From positions 1 to 42,626 of the forward strand of contig JADGQS010000011.1 of NCBI GenBank assembly GCA_017881585.1: 42,626 nucleotides of DNA, given 5' to 3'. The translations under genes and the position numbers were made by a program. Numbering within the stretch: the stretch's first letter is position 1; the number at the start of each line of letters is the position of its first letter. Shown here piece by piece: positions 11,762 to 36,547 of the stretch. Source of the DNA: Gemmatimonadaceae bacterium. GTDB lineage: Bacteria; Gemmatimonadota; Gemmatimonadetes; Gemmatimonadales; Gemmatimonadaceae. The notes under the pieces were generated by a model. The model had not been told where the DNA came from. It was given only the letters and a program-made list of their open reading frames with translations, and did no database searches.

Positions 11762-11937
11762 TGTGAGATGGGAGTTCTGAGAGAAGTGGCGAGAGACGCG
11801 ACCTGCTCAGAAGTGGCGAGAGCTCCCCACTGCCCACTCGCCACTCGGTTCTCCCCACTTCCCACTCACCCTTGCCACTTCCCCCTGGTCTCGCCACTCG
11901 CCACTGAACTCGCCACTGAACTCGCCACTCAAGTCTG
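11762..11937. repeat. heptamer-type repeat array (cgccact-like units), inverted left arm (gaagtggcgagag)
   Basis: tccccac tgcccac tcgccac tcggttc tccccac ttcccac ... tcgccac tcgccac tgaac tcgccac tgaac tcgccac. Confidence 0.85.
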
Positions 11938-15718: not shown

Positions 15719-18502
15719 CTACTTCGCGAGGTTCCGCAGCACGTAGGGCAGGATCCCGCCGTGCTTGAAGTAGTTCAGCTCTTCGGGCGTGTCGATCCTG
15801 CTGCGCGCGGTGAACGATTTCACCGTGCCGTCCGCGCCAACGGCCTTCACGGTCAGCACCGCGCGCGGTGCCATCGCGTCGCTCAATCCGTCGATCGTGA
15901 TCGTCTCGAATCCGGTGAGGCCGAGCGACGTTCGCGTGGCGTCGTCGGTGAACTCGAGCGGAAGCACGCCCATGCCCACGAGGTTCGAACGATGGATGCG
16001 CTCGAAGCTCTCCGCGATCACCGCGCGCACGCCGAGCAGCATCGTGCCCTTCGCCGCCCAGTCGCGCGACGAGCCCGTGCCGTATTCCTTGCCGGCGATG
16101 ACCACGAGCGCCGTCCCGCTCTTGCGAAACGATTCGGATGCTTCGAAGAACGACGTCGGATCCGCGTTCGGTGCCGTGCGCGTCCACCACCCTTCCATGC
16201 CCGGCGTGAGCTCGTTCTTCAGCCGGATGTTCGAGAATGTGCCGCGCATCATGACTTCATGGTTGCCGCGGCGCGCGCCGTACGAGTTGAAATCCTTCCT
16301 GGTCACGCCCTGTGCGATCAGCCACTGGCCCGCCGGGCTCTTCTCCGCGATCGATCCGGCCGGTGATATATGGTCCGTCGTGATCGAGTCGCCGAACATG
16401 CCGAGCACTCGCGCGTTCGTCACTGGCTGCACGCCCGGCGGCGTCATCGTCATCCCCTCGAAGTACGGCGGGTGCTTCACGTAGGTGGACGTGTCGCTCC
16501 ACGCGAAGCGGTCGCCCTCGGCCACGCTGATCGCGCGCCACTGGTCGCCGCCGTCGAACACGTTCGCGTACTGCTTCTCGAACTGTTCGCGGAGCACGCT
16601 CGTCAGAACGGTGTCCGCGACTTCCTTCGGGCTCGGCCAGATGTCGCGCAGGAAGACGGGGCCGTCGGTGCCGACGCCGAGCGGCTCCGTGTCGAGGTCG
16701 ATGTCCATCCGCCCCGCGATCGCGTACGCGACGACCAGCGGCGGCGACATCAGGTAGTTGAATCGCGTCTGCGGGTTCACGCGGCCCTCGAAGTTGCGGT
16801 TCCCCGAGAGCACCGCGGCAACGACGAGCTTGCCGCGGTCGATCGCCTCGGAGATCGTCTGCGGGAGCGGGCCCGAGTTGCCGATGCACGTTGTGCAGCC
16901 GTATCCGACGAGATCGAATCCGAGCGCGTCGAGCGCCGGCTGCACGCCGGCCTTCGCGTAGTAGTCGGTCACGACCTTCGAGCCCGGCGCCAGCGACGTC
17001 TTCACCCACGGGCGCGTGCGCAATCCTTTCGCGACGGCCTTCTTCGCCAGGAGACCGGCGGCGAGCATGACGCTCGGGTTGCTCGTGTTCGTGCAGCTCG
17101 TGATCGCGGCGATCACGATCGCGCCGTGTTTCAGAGTGAACTTCTCGCCGTTGTGTTCGCACGGAATGCCGGGTTCTTCCGTGTGCACGGGCGCCTCGCC
17201 TTCCATCACGGCGACGGCCTTGTCCGTCGGAGCGGCTGCCGCGGTTCCTGCCATCTGCGCCGCGAACGCCTCGGCATACATCTTCTTCGACGCCGACAGC
17301 GGGATGCGATCTTGCGGGCGTTTCGGCCCTGCGAGGCTCGGCACGACCGTCGCCAGGTCGAGTTCGAGCGTGTCGGAGAAGACCGGGTCGGGCGTCGCGT
17401 CCGTGCGGAAGAGCCCCTGCGCCTTGGTGTACGCCTCGACGAGCTTCACCTGGTGCTCGCTGCGTCCGGAGAGGCGCAGGTACTTGAGCGTCTCGTCGTC
17501 GCAGGGGAAGAAGCCCATCGTCGCGCCGTACTCGGGGCTCATGTTCGCGATCGTCGCGCGATCGGCGAGCGCGAGCGACGAGAGGCCGCTTCCGTAGTAC
17601 TCGACGAATTTTCCGACGACTTTCTTCTTGCGAAGCATCTCGGTGCACGTGAGCACGAGATCGGTTGCGGTCGCGCCGGCGGGCAGTTTTCCGTGAAACT
17701 TGAATCCGACGACCTCCGGGATGAGCATCGAAACCGGCTGTCCGAGCATCGCCGCTTCTGCTTCGATGCCGCCCACGCCCCACCCGAGCACGGCGAGGCC
17801 GTTGATCATCGTGGTGTGCGAGTCCGTCCCGACCAATGAATCGCAGTACGCCGCCTTCTGCCGTCTGCCGTCTGCCGTCTGCCGTCCGCTCTCGTCGCTC
17901 TCTGGCGATTCTTCGCCAACGAATACGACCTGGCCGAGGTATTCCAGATTCACCTGATGGCAGATGCCGGTGCCCGGCGGCACCACGCGGAAATTCTCGA
18001 ACGCCTTCTGTCCCCAGCGCAGGAACTGGTAGCGCTCGAGATTCCGCTCGTACTCGAGGTTGGTGTTGATGAGCAGCGCTGCGTCCGTCCCGTATTCGTC
18101 GACCTGCACAGAGTGATCGATCACGAGGTCCACGGGCTGCAGCGGATTGATCTTCGACGGCTTGCCACCGAGTTTCGCGAGCGCGTCGCGCATCGCGGCG
18201 AGATCCACCACGCACGGCACGCCGGTGAAGTCCTGCAGCAGCACTCTCGCGGTGCGGAACGCGATCTCCTTGTCGACGCGCGCGCGGACGTTCCAGGTCG
18301 CCATCGCGAGCACGTCCGCGGCCTTCACGAACGCGCCGTCTTCGTTTCGCAGGAGATTCTCGAGGAGGATCTTCAGCGAGAACGGGAGCGAGGCGACCGT
18401 GTTGCCCGGGACGGCGTTGAGCGCGTCGAGGCGGTAGACGACGTACGATTCGCCGTCGACGGGGAGCGACGCGCGGGACTTGAAGCTGTTTCTGGTTGTC
18501 AT
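15719..18502 (-). CDS. acnA: aconitate hydratase A
   Basis: DSLVGTDSHTTMINGLAVLGWGVGGIEAEAAMLGQPVSMLIPEVVGFKFHGKL; AITSCTNTSNPSVM; GSSRDWAAKGTMLLGVRAVIAESFERIHRSNLVGMGVLPLEF. Confidence 0.97.
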   Translation of the reverse strand: MTTRNSFKSRASLPVDGESYVVYRLDALNAVPGNTVASLPFSLKILLENLLRNEDGAFVKAADVLAMATWNVRARVDKEIAFRTARVLLQDFTGVPCVVDLAAMRDALAKLGGKPSKINPLQPVDLVIDHSVQVDEYGTDAALLINTNLEYERNLERYQFLRWGQKAFENFRVVPPGTGICHQVNLEYLGQVVFVGEESPESDESGRQTADGRRQKAAYCDSLVGTDSHTTMINGLAVLGWGVGGIEAEAAMLGQPVSMLIPEVVGFKFHGKLPAGATATDLVLTCTEMLRKKKVVGKFVEYYGSGLSSLALADRATIANMSPEYGATMGFFPCDDETLKYLRLSGRSEHQVKLVEAYTKAQGLFRTDATPDPVFSDTLELDLATVVPSLAGPKRPQDRIPLSASKKMYAEAFAAQMAGTAAAAPTDKAVAVMEGEAPVHTEEPGIPCEHNGEKFTLKHGAIVIAAITSCTNTSNPSVMLAAGLLAKKAVAKGLRTRPWVKTSLAPGSKVVTDYYAKAGVQPALDALGFDLVGYGCTTCIGNSGPLPQTISEAIDRGKLVVAAVLSGNRNFEGRVNPQTRFNYLMSPPLVVAYAIAGRMDIDLDTEPLGVGTDGPVFLRDIWPSPKEVADTVLTSVLREQFEKQYANVFDGGDQWRAISVAEGDRFAWSDTSTYVKHPPYFEGMTMTPPGVQPVTNARVLGMFGDSITTDHISPAGSIAEKSPAGQWLIAQGVTRKDFNSYGARRGNHEVMMRGTFSNIRLKNELTPGMEGWWTRTAPNADPTSFFEASESFRKSGTALVVIAGKEYGTGSSRDWAAKGTMLLGVRAVIAESFERIHRSNLVGMGVLPLEFTDDATRTSLGLTGFETITIDGLSDAMAPRAVLTVKAVGADGTVKSFTARSRIDTPEELNYFKHGGILPYVLRNLAK
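17853..17899. repeat. heptamer repeat inserted in frame inside acnA
   Basis: ccttctg ccgtctg ccgtctg ccgtctg ccgtccg ctctcgt; encodes ..SGRQTADGRRQKAAY.. in AcnA. Confidence 0.88.
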
Positions 18503-19726: not shown

Positions 19727-19809
19727 CAGCGGGTAATCGGTCGTTGGTTCTTGGTTCTTGGCGATGCCAAGAACCAAGAACCAACGACCAACGACTGATT
19801 ACCCGCTGT
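19727..19809. repeat. long inverted repeat of heptamers (hairpin)
   Basis: acagcgggtaatc ggtcgtt ggttctt ggttctt ggc-gat-gcc aagaacc aagaacc aacgacc aacgact gattacccgctgt. Confidence 0.93.
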
Positions 19810-25598: not shown

Positions 25599-26365
25599 GT
25601 GCGGCTCGAAGCTTGTTCCTGACGCCGTCGCGGCTCGTCGTGCACACGCGATACGTGCTGCAGGATTACCTGCTGCTGCGCGCCGCGCTGCCGGTGGCGC
25701 TCATATCGTTCTTCGCCTGGATGATCGCGCGTCAGACGCTGAGGTTCGCCGGGCCCAAGCAGTGGGCCGATCCCCGCTTTCTCGCAGGGATACATTCGGC
25801 GTACGGAAGCTTCTCCGCGGTCTTGCTGTACTTCACCATGTTCCTCGCCGTGATCGCGGTCATGACGGTTGATCGCACCACGGGCTACTACCGGTTCTTC
25901 TTCTCGAAGCCGGTCAACGTCGTCTCGTACTACCTGCACACGTTCTGCGTGCACGGCGCGGCGGTCTGCGTTCTCCTCGCTCTCCTCGCGCTCGCGTGGG
26001 GAACGTGGCTGCCGCATGAATCGCTGCATCGCGCGTCGTATGTGGGCATGATCGCGTTTGCGCTCATCGGGGGTCTCGGCTTCGGCTTCGGAGCCCTCAC
26101 GAATGCCGACGCGGCGCTCACGCCGCTCTCCTTCATATTCGCGATCTCGGCGCAATTCACCCTGGTCGACTACACGGCGCCGCCGCGGTGGCTCGTGATT
26201 GCGGCGAAGGTCCTTCCACCCGCCGCCGACTTCGAGAAGACGCGCCACCTGCTGAGCGACGCGCATCCGTTCTTGGGCGCCCCGCTCGGGCACGTGCTCG
26301 CGTACGGCGCCGGAGGATGGATTCTCGGCCTGATATTCCTCCGCCGGCGCCCGCTCGCGCGATGA
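25595..26365 (+). CDS. ABC transporter permease (second, paralogous)
   Basis: MSAARSLFLTPSRLVVHTRYVLQDYLLLRAALPVALISFFAW..GYYRFFFSKPVNVVSYYLHTFCVHG. Confidence 0.82.
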   Translation: MSAARSLFLTPSRLVVHTRYVLQDYLLLRAALPVALISFFAWMIARQTLRFAGPKQWADPRFLAGIHSAYGSFSAVLLYFTMFLAVIAVMTVDRTTGYYRFFFSKPVNVVSYYLHTFCVHGAAVCVLLALLALAWGTWLPHESLHRASYVGMIAFALIGGLGFGFGALTNADAALTPLSFIFAISAQFTLVDYTAPPRWLVIAAKVLPPAADFEKTRHLLSDAHPFLGAPLGHVLAYGAGGWILGLIFLRRRPLAR

Positions 26366-29016
26366 CCAGGTTGGTTCAGGTACCGTACGCGGGGTTGCTC
26401 GACTCCGTGCTCCCGCCGGAATCGGTGGTACGCACGACGCTCGCCAACGGGCTGCGCCTGCTCGTGCGGCGCGACACGAGCGCGCCGGTCGTCGCGATCG
26501 TCACCTACGTCGGAGCCGGCTATTTCGACGAGACCGACGACGAGATCGGCATCGCGCACGTGCTCGAGCACATGTACTTCAAGGGCACGCCCACCCGCGG
26601 CCCGGGTGAGATAGCGCGCGACACGAAGGCGAGCGGCGGCTATCTCAATGCCGGCACGATCTATGACCACACGTACTACTACACGGTGCTGCCATCGAGC
26701 GGGTTCGCGGCAGGGCTGGCGATCCAGGCCGACGCGTACGCGAACTCGCTGATCGACGGCGGCGAACTGTCCCGCGAACTCGAAGTCATCATCGAAGAGG
26801 CCAAGCGCAAGACCGACAGCGCCGGCGCGCTTGCCACCGAAACACTTTTCGAGCTGCTGCACGACAGGCATCGCATCCGGCGCTGGCGCATCGGTCACGA
26901 GGCGGGGCTGCGCACCTTCACGCGCGAGATGGTCGACGGGTTCTACCGCCGGTTCTATCGTCCCTCGAACACCGTCGTCGCGATCGTCGGCGACGTCGAT
27001 CCGGCAGAGGCGCGCGCGCTCGTCGAGCGGCACTATGGCTCGATTCCGGGCGGGACCGTCCATCGCGTGCCGGGTCCCGCGGAACCGCCGCACGTCGATC
27101 CGTCGTTCCGCTACTCCGAGTTTGCGGGCGACATCCAGCAGGCGGAGCTCGTCTTCGGCTGGCGCAGCCCGGCACTGCTGCACGACGACACGCCGCCGCT
27201 CGACCTGCTCGCGGCCGTGCTCGGGTCCGGCCGCGCCTCGCGCCTGTACCGCGCGGTGCGCGAGCGTCGTCTCGCGTCGTCGATCGTGGCGTACGACTAC
27301 ACTCCCGGCGAGATCGGCGTGTTCGTCGTGCACGCGACCGCGCGGCCCGAGCGCGGACGAAGTGCCGCGCACGCCGCGTGGGATCAGATCCGGCGCGCGC
27401 GCGACGGCGAAATCACCTCTGCCGAGGTCGAGCGCGCCCGGCGCGTGCTCGAGGCCCAGTGGCTCCGCCGGTTCGAGTCCATGGGAGGGCAGGCGAACCA
27501 CCTCGCGAGCTGGGAGCTCGCCGGCAACTGGATGCTCGGCGGCGCGTACCTCAATCGCCTGCTGACGTCCGATGCCGACCGCCTGACGGACGTGGCGCGC
27601 CGCTGGCTCGCGCCGGAGCGCGCCGGGCTCGTCGCGTATCGTCCCTCGGGCGCGCCGCCGTTCGCGACGAACGCGGCAGAGATGCGCGACGCCCTGGAAG
27701 GCGAGCGCCTCGAGCCTCTTTCTCCGCTCACGCACCCGGTCCCGCCGACGCCCGTCCATGGTTCGCGGGCGTGGGTCTTCGAGCGCGAGGAGGCCGAGGT
27801 GCGCGTGTTCCGCATGTCCGGGGGCGTTCCCGTGCTGGTGCACCGCCGTCCCGGCGCGCTCGTGCACCTGGGATGGTTCGTGCGCGGCGGCGCGGTGCAC
27901 GAGGCCGCGAACGCGACCGGTCTGACATCGCTCATGACGCGTGTGTCGCTCAAGGGAACGGAGCGCCGCAGCGCGCAGCGCATCGCCGAGGACGCGGAGT
28001 TTCTGGGTGGCGTGCTGTCGACCGCTGCCGCCGCCGACGGATTCCAGTGGACGATCTCGGTGCCGAGGCGCCGTCTCGACGAGGCCGCCGAGCTGCTCGC
28101 CGACGTCGTGCAGCGCCCGTCGTTCAGCGAGGAAGGGCTCGAATCCGAGCGCGCCGTCGCGCTCGCGAGCCTCGCGGCGTTGCGTGACGACATGTATCGC
28201 TGGCCGCTCCGCCTCGCGACGCAAGCGGCGTGGGGTTCGCATCCATACGGCCGGTCGGTGCTCGGCACGGAGGAATCGCTCGCGGCGATGGATTCCGCTG
28301 CGCTGCGCCGCTGGCACGCAAAGGTGGCCGTCGAGGCGCCGGGCGTTCTGGTGTGCGTCGGCGACGTCGGGCCGGACGAGGGCGCATCGCTCGCGACGCG
28401 CTTCTTCAGCGGACTGCGCGCCGCCGACGGTGAAGCCGTGCCGGCACCCGCTTGGCCGACCGGCGTCCTGCAGAACGAAGACCGGCGCGACAAGGCGCAG
28501 AGCGCGCTCGCCATGCTGTTCGAGGGTCCGGCTCGCGATGACGACGCGCGCTTCACCGCCGGCATGATCGCGGGCGTCGCGAGCGGGCTCGGCGGGCGTT
28601 TCTTCGATGAGCTGCGCGATCGCCAGTCGCTCGCGTACACAGTCATGGCGGCACCGCTCGTGCGTCACCGCGCGGGGGCGTTCAGCGCCTACATCGCCAT
28701 GTCGCCCGAAAAGGAAGAGGCGGCCCGCAGCGGCCTGCTCCGCGAGTTCGCCCGCCTGCGCGAGTCGCCCGTCACGGAGCGCGAACTCACGCAGGCCAAG
28801 ACGTACGCGCTCGGCACATGGGCGATCCGTCGGGAGAGCGCGGCGGCCGTGATGGGCGACATCGCCGACGCGTGGCTGTTCGGCCGGTCGCTCTCCGAAC
28901 TTACGGAGTATGAGTCTCGAGTTCGCGCGGTGTCAGCGGCGCAGATGCTCCAGCTGGCGCGTGCTTATTTCGATCCGGAGCGACGCGTGGAAGGAATCGT
29001 GCGCGCGATTCGGTGA
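26362..29016 (+). CDS. M16 family zinc metallopeptidase, two M16 modules in one chain
   Basis: Zinc motif HVLEHMYFKGTPTRGPGEI; ELEVIIEEAKRK; second half inactive-type module. Confidence 0.93.
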   Translation: MTRLVQVPYAGLLDSVLPPESVVRTTLANGLRLLVRRDTSAPVVAIVTYVGAGYFDETDDEIGIAHVLEHMYFKGTPTRGPGEIARDTKASGGYLNAGTIYDHTYYYTVLPSSGFAAGLAIQADAYANSLIDGGELSRELEVIIEEAKRKTDSAGALATETLFELLHDRHRIRRWRIGHEAGLRTFTREMVDGFYRRFYRPSNTVVAIVGDVDPAEARALVERHYGSIPGGTVHRVPGPAEPPHVDPSFRYSEFAGDIQQAELVFGWRSPALLHDDTPPLDLLAAVLGSGRASRLYRAVRERRLASSIVAYDYTPGEIGVFVVHATARPERGRSAAHAAWDQIRRARDGEITSAEVERARRVLEAQWLRRFESMGGQANHLASWELAGNWMLGGAYLNRLLTSDADRLTDVARRWLAPERAGLVAYRPSGAPPFATNAAEMRDALEGERLEPLSPLTHPVPPTPVHGSRAWVFEREEAEVRVFRMSGGVPVLVHRRPGALVHLGWFVRGGAVHEAANATGLTSLMTRVSLKGTERRSAQRIAEDAEFLGGVLSTAAAADGFQWTISVPRRRLDEAAELLADVVQRPSFSEEGLESERAVALASLAALRDDMYRWPLRLATQAAWGSHPYGRSVLGTEESLAAMDSAALRRWHAKVAVEAPGVLVCVGDVGPDEGASLATRFFSGLRAADGEAVPAPAWPTGVLQNEDRRDKAQSALAMLFEGPARDDDARFTAGMIAGVASGLGGRFFDELRDRQSLAYTVMAAPLVRHRAGAFSAYIAMSPEKEEAARSGLLREFARLRESPVTERELTQAKTYALGTWAIRRESAAAVMGDIADAWLFGRSLSELTEYESRVRAVSAAQMLQLARAYFDPERRVEGIVRAIR

Positions 29017-29080
29017 TGAGAATCGAGTTCCGAGACGGTTGCGGGATGCGGGATTTCCAGCAATTGCAGGGTGCAGGTGA

Positions 29081-29167
29081 GGAATGCTCCCGAATTGCAG
29101 GTTGCAGGTGAGGAATGCGGGATGCGGGGTAAGATGAGAGTGGCGAGTTTGGATACGGGATGCGGGG
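29081..29167. repeat. left inverted repeat
   Basis: ggaatgctcccgaattgcaggttgcaggtgaggaatgcgggatgcggggtaagatgagag..tacgggatgcgggg matches the reverse complement of 29691-29780. Confidence 0.9.
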
Positions 29168-29210
29168 AAAGGCTTGTGTTTTGAGGCCATCAGGGTTGCA
29201 TCGTTGACGC

Positions 29211-29675
29211 ATGACCAACTCTTCGGTGCAAGCTTTCAGCGAGTGGGAGAAGGGCGCGGACAAATCGCGCGTCGGTGATCCGCTTTGGAGTGTGCAAGCC
29301 TATCGACTCAGTCTCTTTGCGATCGAGAGCCATACCTTCGATCGGCGCATCAACGCACAGTTCGGTATGGCTGCCGCCCTCGACCAACTCACGCGGGCAA
29401 TCGGATCCATCTCCGCGAACCTCGCGGAGGGCTACTCTCGTTCGTCGGTAGCGGATCGCACGCGATTCTACGGGTACGCCCTCGGATCGACTCGCGAGGC
29501 CATCGCGTGGTACGACACGCTGCAGTTTGAGTTGGGTGACGTCGCCGCAGAGCGTCAGTGCACGCTGATTCAGATTCGCCGACTGCTCCTGACCATGCTC
29601 AAGAGGACGCGCCCGGACGGTCCCGCGCACTCGATGCGCGACTTTCCGAAGCGAACGCCCGACTCTGACAGCTGA
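29211..29675 (+). CDS. four helix bundle protein (S23/IVP-like, TIGR02436-type)
   Basis: WSVQAYRLSLFAIESHTFDRRINAQFGMAAALDQLTRAIGSISANLAEGYSRSSVADRTRFYGYALGSTREAIAWYDTLQFELG; S-I-x-A-N-[LI]-A-E-G motif. Confidence 0.85.
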   Translation: MTNSSVQAFSEWEKGADKSRVGDPLWSVQAYRLSLFAIESHTFDRRINAQFGMAAALDQLTRAIGSISANLAEGYSRSSVADRTRFYGYALGSTREAIAWYDTLQFELGDVAAERQCTLIQIRRLLLTMLKRTRPDGPAHSMRDFPKRTPDSDS

Positions 29676-29690
29676 ACGCCGCGTCTCGCT

Positions 29691-29780
29691 TCTTCCCGCA
29701 TCCCGCATCCGATCTCACTTCTCATCACTTACCCCAGTACCCGCATTCCTCACCTGCAACCTGCAATTTCGGGAGATTCC
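29691..29780. repeat. right inverted repeat
   Basis: cttcccgcatcccgcatccgatctcacttctcatcacttaccccagtacccgcattcctcacctgcaacctgcaatttcgggagattcc. Confidence 0.9.
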
Positions 29781-29788
29781 GAATCCCC

Positions 29789-30514
29789 CTAACGACTCTT
29801 CGCTGGTAGGTACCCTAGCGCGCGATTCAGCCAGCGGCACATGGGCACCAGCCGCGCGAAATCTTTCATCGCCTTGTCCGCAAGCTTCGGCGAGAGCATG
29901 TCGGCATCGCTGTACATGCGGTGCATCGTGAACGAATTGAATCGCAGCCAGCGTTCCGCCGGATGTCCCTCCTCGAACCCGCGCGGCAGCCGCTTGAGCA
30001 GGACTCCATCCTCGTCGTCCACGAGGCCGCCGAATCGCTTCAACACCGCGGGCGCCGTGACCGCGCGCTTCCATCCGGCGAGATCCTCACTGAAGTGCTC
30101 GCGAACCTTCGCGAGCGAGGGACGCGGCGGCATCCAGAGCCCCGCCGCGACCAGCGACGCGTTCGGTTCGAGGTGAACGTAGAATCCCGCGCCGCCGTCG
30201 ATCTCCCTGGCCACGCCGCGGCCCGGCGCGCGATGATAGATCCAGAGCGCCACGTGCGCCTTGTACGGCGACTTGTCGTTCGAGAAGCGCACGTCGCGGT
30301 AGATCCTGAACATCGAGCGCTTCGGGTCGCCGACGAACTCCGGCGCGAGACCGGCAAAGCGCACGTCGAGTTCCTCGATGAGCGCCTTCATCGGATCGGA
30401 GACCTCGCGCACGAACTCCTCGCGCCGCGCCTCGAACCACTCGCGGCGGTTGTTCTTCTTCAGTCCGCGCAGGTACGCGAGCGCCTCGGGTCTGAATCCG
30501 CGGAACGATTGCAT
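29789..30514 (-). CDS. DUF2461 family protein
   Basis: FRPEALAYLRGLKKNNRREWFEARREEFVREVSDPMKALIEEL..PKRSMFRIYRDVRFSNDKSPYKAHVALWIYHR..GAGFYVHLEPNASLVAAGLWMP. Confidence 0.93.
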   Translation of the reverse strand: MQSFRGFRPEALAYLRGLKKNNRREWFEARREEFVREVSDPMKALIEELDVRFAGLAPEFVGDPKRSMFRIYRDVRFSNDKSPYKAHVALWIYHRAPGRGVAREIDGGAGFYVHLEPNASLVAAGLWMPPRPSLAKVREHFSEDLAGWKRAVTAPAVLKRFGGLVDDEDGVLLKRLPRGFEEGHPAERWLRFNSFTMHRMYSDADMLSPKLADKAMKDFARLVPMCRWLNRALGYLPAKSR

Positions 30515-34231: not shown

Positions 34232-34293
34232 TCACCGGTGCCTCACCGGTGCCTCACCGGTGCCTCACCGGTGCCTCACCGGTGCCTCACCGG
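34232..34293. repeat. 5 perfect tandem 11-bp units tgcctcaccgg (34239-34293), forming overlapping CACCGGTG palindromes
   Basis: Direct reading. Confidence 0.93.
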
Positions 34294-34297
34294 TGGG

Positions 34298-36449: not shown

Positions 36450-36547
36450 GCGGCGAGGAGACGGTCACCTCGCCCCTCACCCGTCGCTCTTCACCAAGTC
36501 GCCCCTCACCCGTCGCTCTTCACCAAGTCGCCCCTCACCCGTCGCTC
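36398..36547. repeat. inverted/direct heptamer-type repeat locus: 29-bp unit tcgcccctcacccgtcgctcttcaccaag (2 full + 1 partial) and inverted copy inside VKOR 3' end
   Basis: 36470-36498, 36499-36527, 36528-36547; inverted copy gaagagcgatgagcggcgggtgaggggcga at 36398-36427. Confidence 0.93.

Follow-up and report, generated by a model that had tools for sequence, protein, structure and literature searches.

Inverted heptamer arms around S23 four-helix-bundle genes: a mobile hairpin element probably promoted by its own protein

The window analysed here (the whole stretch of 42,626 nucleotides of contig JADGQS010000011.1, from a Gemmatimonadaceae bacterium) contains what is probably a mobile hairpin element, whose lone protein, a four-helix bundle of the S23 family, promotes the copying of its cognate hairpin; the driver role of the protein is inferred. 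What we observed is that S23 genes are associated with inverted arms, that these arms are G-rich reading inward, that arms and gene insert as a unit, that a single member of each hairpin family bears the gene, and that the two arms of a unit match one another even where they have diverged between species. A requirement for S23 in the movement has not been shown by experiment, and the protein could be a passenger.

The first-pass annotation of this DNA had placed a four-helix-bundle gene flanked by inverted repeats at 29036-29800. The arms, an extra copy of the left arm and the gene were all found at the positions claimed. The limits were nearly right, the arms actually extending to 29032 and 29798, and the assignment to the S23 family was borne out by the PF05635 and TIGR02436 profiles, for a protein of 154 aa and not 155 aa. 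The unit and its neighbours are as follows (strand in brackets):

29032 to 29087 (+): outer left arm (GTTGCGGGATGCGGG..AATTGCAGGGTGCAGG), pairing with 29743-29798 (pair I2, 56 nt, 82% complementary)
29081 to 29173 (+): main left arm (pair I1) of TTGCAGG and TGCGGGA tandem heptamers, G-rich inward, 88% identical to its partner with gaps
29211 to 29675 (+): gene for a four-helix-bundle protein of the S23 or 23S-rRNA-intervening-sequence type, 154 aa (PF05635, TIGR02436; AlphaFold2 model, pLDDT 88)
29688 to 29798 (-): right arm, reverse complement of the left arms, C-rich on the + strand (pairs I1, I2, I5 and I6)
26188 to 29016 (+): M16 peptidase gene (PF05193/PF00675), upstream neighbour and left border of the insertion site, the same neighbour as in relatives
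29789 to 30514 (-): DUF2461/TIGR02453 gene (PF09365, E=4.5e-61), downstream convergent neighbour and right border of the insertion site, used in the synteny test

The repeat search of the window that gave pair I2 also gave pair I1 (29081-29173 with 29688-29780; 93 nt, 76% complementary without gaps) and a further pairing of 29036-29053 with 29694-29711 (94%). With gaps allowed, the 88% identity of the arms runs across 86 nt. The extra left-arm copy (29062-29087 against 29093-29118) is 96% identical over 26 nt. Both arms contain the tandem heptamers TTGCAGG and TGCGGGA (29040-29054, 29095-29109, 29694-29710 and 29752-29766), and the three copies of TTGCAGGTTGCAGG in the window, allowing at most 2 mismatches, all fall within the S23 unit (mean of 0.12 in shuffles).

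The S23 protein scores above the curated cut-offs of PF05635 (E=1.2e-11, 45.2 bits against 33.8) and TIGR02436 (E=4e-13, 49.5 bits against 24), and its gene is the single ORF of the unit (29032-29798). The unit occupies the gap of the two convergent genes nearly from stop codon to stop codon, outside any rRNA gene, and its complementary ends bound the S23 ORF as in a 23S rRNA intervening sequence. ORF and profile searches of the unit revealed no transposase within it, a trans-acting DDE enzyme being outside their scope. The best solved matches of the AlphaFold2 model are 2gsc (XCC0516), to which it aligns with a TMt of 0.81-0.89, and 2rld; it also weakly matches the Avd protein of diversity-generating retroelements (8ub7, prob 0.93; 4dwl, prob 0.82). 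Most S23 proteins of the family are basic (median pI 10.0; 8.9 for the window protein) and no recognised nuclease, recombinase or polymerase motif was found in S23.

In most relatives the S23 unit is absent from the gap between the M16 and DUF2461 genes, which usually spans only tens of bases and contains neither a gene nor repeats. The gap holds an orthologous S23 unit with related words in genome G016, a different short hairpin in G001 (the closest relative of the window's genome, G000) and a direct repeat in G008. About 22 bp of the M16 gene end are duplicated in G001 beside the small hairpin that replaces the S23 unit (L063). The two arms inside one genome are 88-89% identical, and the same arm compared between the orthologues of G000 and G016 only 75-77%, so the arms at this site change together. 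Such closer matching within than between copies is clear for these orthologous units, slight among the hairpins of the L006 family described below and unclear among Nostoc copies.

All seven PF05635 genes in the window's genome (3.09 Mb in 240 contigs) are flanked by inverted repeats, each with its own words. Among them are AGATGCT, GTGGGAGT, GAGGGGTGAGGGG and GAGGGGC/GTGGGGA, while one locus has a non-tandem 24-bp repeat. S23 genes are present in 149 of 180 genomes of the genus and family, and 49/55 family loci have a reverse-complement match between their flanks that exceeds the 95th percentile of a control made of mismatched flank pairs. The 99th percentile of that control is inflated because a few of its pairs are truly homologous, and the controls that we rely on are shuffles and neighbouring genes. 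Plasmid-borne S23 genes, mostly cyanobacterial, have heptamer inverted repeats at 15 of 16 loci, with words that include TAGGGAG, AGGTGAC, AGGAGTC, AGGGTGT, GGGAAAA and AGAGGAC.

For a cross-phylum sample, a Xanthomonas S23 protein was searched against 85,462 species genomes. The 80 named loci found in this way represent at least 20 phyla, and 74 of them were testable. Arms above all shuffles were found at 53/74; the same inverted-repeat test was passed by 1/125 neighbouring ORFs and 2/240 random placements (Fisher p=9e-30). The arms read G-rich inward in 52 of the 53 armed loci (p=1e-14), with a period of 7 in most and of 8 or 9 in some. About a quarter of the S23 genes tested had no detectable arms (e.g., L094, L117 and L135). 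No conserved terminal motif was seen across S23 units, the inverted-repeat sequence differing from family to family. The association proposed by the first-pass annotation would have been refuted by homologous genes without such flanks, always at one syntenic site, or by heptamer arrays independent of the gene family. Flankless S23 genes are instead a minority, the sites are mostly non-syntenic, and within the same loci few strong inverted repeats of heptamers lie away from S23.

Some units have a more settled appearance. GGGAATC flanks the S23 gene in three Xanthomonas species, where the gene lies between accB and accC (as read from the sequence), and the same position is found in Luteimonas and Dokdonella; these old and syntenic units look like cases of retention. 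In several cyanobacterial units (e.g., L088, 1462-1500) the last letters of the G-rich left arm, immediately ahead of the S23 start codon, are AGGAG, and the right arm extends into the 3' end of the gene; the arms of these units therefore also serve as ribosome-binding site and C-terminus.

S23 genes and gene-free hairpins are related in a RAYT/REPIN-like manner, with one master gene for each hairpin family. Searching the window's genome with the arms of three S23 units gave 40-53 arm matches each, which form 20, 15 and 14 inward-facing pairs and no outward-facing ones. A single pair in each family, that of the S23 unit itself, encloses a loop of 525-539 nt, and the remaining loops, of 14-138 nt, are gene-free. 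The window arm matches 15 inward-paired hairpins of its genome, with the gene solely in the window hairpin. The L006 family is represented by 50-58 matches in each of G000 and G001, 16 other genus members have none outside the flanks, and its arms in G001 flank an S23 gene on contig C50. The loops of three gene-free L006-family hairpins are unlike the S23 interior; satellites are thus arms with an unrelated loop, and their origin as internal deletions was rejected. The suggestion that the window unit is the complete form of MITE-like derivatives held in that its family has one gene-bearing member, as have those of two other S23 units. It needs qualifying for the other repeats of the window itself, which belong mostly to families of other S23 units, as in the first two of these features:

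11823 to 11900 (-): arm of a gene-free hairpin of the family whose master is S23 unit L006 on contig C138 (91% identity to the L006 arm)
36502 to 36545 (-): arm of the family whose master is S23 unit L005 on contig C182 (78% identity to the L005 arm)
1932 to 2141 (no strand): gene-free inverted arrays of tandem heptamers (GCAGACGG.. / ..CCGTCTG), G-rich inward
19744 to 19795 (no strand): gene-free hairpin of tandem heptamers (TTGGTTC.. / ..CCAAGAACCAA)

Other repeats of the window are a 12-mer tandem array, GACGGCAGTCGG x8.7 (1935-2040), a near-perfect (GCCGTCT)n heptamer array in frame inside the aconitase coding sequence (17853-17886), an 11-mer tandem array, TCACCGGTGCC x5.8 (34232-34295), and a 29-mer tandem repeat made from words of the L005 S23 family (36470-36547).

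Hairpin families replace one another at one intergenic site (G000:C4:15395-15655; the same site as L317, L318 and L319), where gene-free hairpins of three families are found in three species (G000, G001 and G008) and none in G016. The genome-wide hairpin counts rest on the arm searches for three S23 families plus samples. In these samples, in which related genomes are pooled, S23-rich genomes had 21 heptamer arrays and 34 inverted repeats in 622 kb, against 10 and 26 in 1226 kb, and 7 was the only array period raised. All 14 inverted repeats in the sample from the window's genome were G-rich inward.

That the S23 unit is mobile, as the first-pass annotation had proposed, is supported by exact empty sites for units elsewhere, together with the absence of the window unit from the same gap in most relatives. 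At about 98% identity, a clean empty site reads AAAAAGTAATTAAC where the filled one reads AAAAAGTAAT-(element)-GTAATTAAC, a gain of 428 bp. This site is the gap before a TrbI/VirB10 operon gene in conjugative Nostocales plasmids, which is empty in Tolypothrix PCC 7601 and Nostoc PCC 7120 (AAAAAGTAATTAACAAAT) and filled in Trichormus ATCC 29413 (AAAAAGTAAT-(element)-GTAATTAACAAAT), where the 428-bp insertion includes a 5-bp direct repeat, GTAAT, and carries S23 as its sole gene. No heptamers are present at the empty site of Tolypothrix and PCC 7120, so arms and gene arrived together. A decayed remnant occupies the same plasmid site in Nostoc C052.

Further filled and empty pairs were found at two sites (2 and 5) in a Nostoc plasmid cluster, between Aulosira and Tolypothrix, and in the cas10-cmr3 gap of the cmr operon, where Picosynechococcus PCC 7003 has an S23 unit and PCC 7002 has none. 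S23 genes termed CRISPR-associated can thus be insertions in cas operons. The S23 units of L083, L087 and L090 occupy either a cas6-cas4 or a cas10-cmr3 gap, and the cas6-cas4 gap of a Dolichospermum (L101) holds a different inverted-repeat element (GTAGGTTGGGTTGACGC..) where Anabaena 90 has an S23 unit. One element family, arms included, recurs at about 82% identity in at least three unrelated contexts whose flanks do not align. An unambiguous short direct repeat is seen only at site 1, the clean TrbI/VirB10 one, sites 2-5 being diverged or overlapping heptamer words. The insertion point lies in the loop of a hairpin of at least 5 bp at 3/6 empty sites (background of about 0.09 at random positions); we take this excess as a lead, not a result.

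S23 ORFs were already known in the intervening sequences of 23S rRNA (Coxiella and Leptospira, PMC4990558; PMC11270868). The intervening sequence of Coxiella, of 428-444 nt, has been called selfish, and it replaces the tip of an rRNA hairpin (PMC4990558). Azospirillum lipoferum carries an S23 element inside its 23S rRNA gene (RF02541). Compared with the 99.6% identical 23S rRNA of A. ramasamyi, a 17-nt hairpin (GCGATCTTTTAGATCGC) is replaced exactly by heptamer arms and S23. This unit is literally an intervening sequence with heptamer arms, so that intervening sequences of the classical type (PMC4990558) and intergenic elements are one kind of object. They share the gene family, the complementary ends that form a stem, the ORF in the loop and a similar size. 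The differences are that the window unit and nearly all others lie outside rRNA, that their arms are tandem heptamers and that gene-free satellites occur genome-wide. On a stricter view, the S23 hairpin element could be classed with the intervening sequences.

As we read it, the element consists of two inverted arms, built from short and often 7-nt words, and a loop that holds a single S23 gene. It inserts whole, be it into an intergenic gap, between the genes of an operon or into an rRNA hairpin, and yields gene-free hairpins that share its arms, tens per genome. The S23 protein, mostly basic and with a pentameric relative (XCC0516), is inferred to bind its cognate folded hairpin, without binding data as yet, and may promote its copying and insertion with the help of host DNA enzymes, mostly by a DNA route (DNA versus RNA has not been shown). 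Sites already able to fold into a hairpin are perhaps preferred for insertion. The words might be altered, with the arms kept paired, by slippage from heptamer to heptamer and by template switching within the hairpin, and the G-rich 5' arm presumably also provides the ribosome-binding site of the S23 gene.

The main rival to S23 as driver is that a host or trans-acting enzyme recognising G-rich-inward hairpins moves them, S23 being cargo that protects the hairpin RNA or is translated from it. We consider this unlikely, if far from negligible. The lack of a catalytic motif in S23 would agree with a passenger, as would the ratio of gene-free to gene-bearing hairpins, about 15-20 to 1, and the fact that the Xanthomonas repeats are not IS-associated (Rehm et al., 2015; PMC4692102). 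However, each hairpin family has exactly one S23 gene, with arms specific to it, the L006 family is found in the two genus members that carry its cognate S23 and is missing from the others, and S23 is the common factor across phyla. In the genus, the Y1 transposase domain (Y1_Tnp, PF01797) is absent from all 18 genomes (which also rules out a RAYT identity for window-type units) and a reverse transcriptase domain from 17 of them. The latter also bears on a retroelement-like route, in which S23 would assist a reverse transcriptase, in the manner of Avd, to copy the hairpin RNA to new places. The structural matches of the window model to XCC0516 and, weakly, to Avd, the S23-Avd homology noted before (PMC10053308) and a short duplication compatible with target-primed insertion would all suit such a route, to which we nevertheless attach very little credence. 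The element has no reverse transcriptase gene, and the RVT_1 domain is missing from G000 and from 16/17 other genus genomes, including the nearly complete G016 with its 11 S23 genes. A reverse transcriptase acting in trans is thereby ruled out for this genus.

It could also be that hairpins come first, polymerase slippage making the heptamer hairpins and S23 genes entering their loops as they enter rRNA helices. Heptamer repeats are common in bacteria and have been attributed to slippage (PMC4692102, PMC4679880), the Azospirillum unit did replace an rRNA hairpin, half of the empty sites have their insertion point in a hairpin loop, and one genus site has hosted three hairpin families in three species. 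We give this only little weight against the clean empty site without heptamers, at which arms and gene came together, and against the arms moving along with the gene between contexts. Scarcely any weight is left for an ordinary host gene flanked on both sides by a regulatory stem-loop or a bidirectional terminator. The window unit does lie between convergent genes and hairpins at gene ends can terminate transcription, but the clean presence and absence, the unrelated contexts, the satellites and the neighbouring genes without such arms all speak against it, and the empty sites refute it as a sufficient account.

Coming back to the S23-promoted element, it resembles several known systems without coinciding with any. 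With REPIN/RAYT (PMC3116915) it has in common that each family of short gene-free hairpins shares its arms with one master that bears a gene; the S23 master is a four-helix bundle and not a Y1 HUH transposase, and there is no GTAG-tagged REP. As in IS elements and MITEs, there are terminal inverted repeats, one ORF, non-autonomous derivatives and, at one site, a short target repeat; unlike them, the S23 unit has no transposase and its termini are not conserved between different families. To our knowledge, a 423-bp unit is smaller than known IS elements, and we know of no system that pairs a non-transposase master with locus-specific heptamer arms. The likeness to diversity-generating retroelements is limited to the related four-helix pentamer fold of Avd (by model comparison; PMC10053308), as the S23 unit has neither a reverse transcriptase nor a template and variable repeat pair. 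S23 has been described as an Avd relative (PMC10053308) and as a guest of cas loci (PMC3936711, PMC10910872).

Heptameric simple repeats have been reported in Xanthomonas (GGGAATC), Nostoc (GGGGATT) and Calothrix (heptanucleotides) (PMC4692102) and in Beggiatoaceae (TAACTGA; PMC4679880). For Xanthomonas, Rehm et al. (2015; PMC4692102) counted about 185 copies of GGGAATC per genome, 70 pairs of them convergent, without a known connection to mobile elements. Such repeats share with the S23 arms the 7-nt words, the intergenic position and inverted pairs that are convergent as in Xanthomonas, where GGGAATC flanks S23 (Beggiatoaceae were outside our sample). They differ in having been reported without a gene or mobile-element link, their origin being ascribed to slippage. 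We found no link between S23 and heptamers in the literature, subscription papers being outside the search.

S23, previously known mainly from ribosomal RNA oddities, is now tied to elements with inverted, often heptameric, arms across a sample of at least 20 phyla. Whether S23 proteins drive, throughout the tree, a hitherto unrecognised class of mobile elements, in which folded hairpins are copied with neither a classical transposase nor a reverse transcriptase, with the rRNA intervening sequence as a special case and much of the heptamer excess as debris, is a wider proposal on which we find ourselves evenly divided. If true, a very widespread protein family of unknown function would acquire a role, and an origin would be found for many heptamer repeats, a question since the 1990s that has so far been answered by slippage. 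It would pose the mechanistic question of how a helical bundle of about 120-150 aa, without known catalytic motif, accompanies DNA insertion. S23 genes catalogued as CRISPR-associated (PMC3936711, PMC10910872) should be treated with caution since they may be insertions in cas operons, and the rRNA intervening sequence, once a curiosity, would become one instance of a general element.
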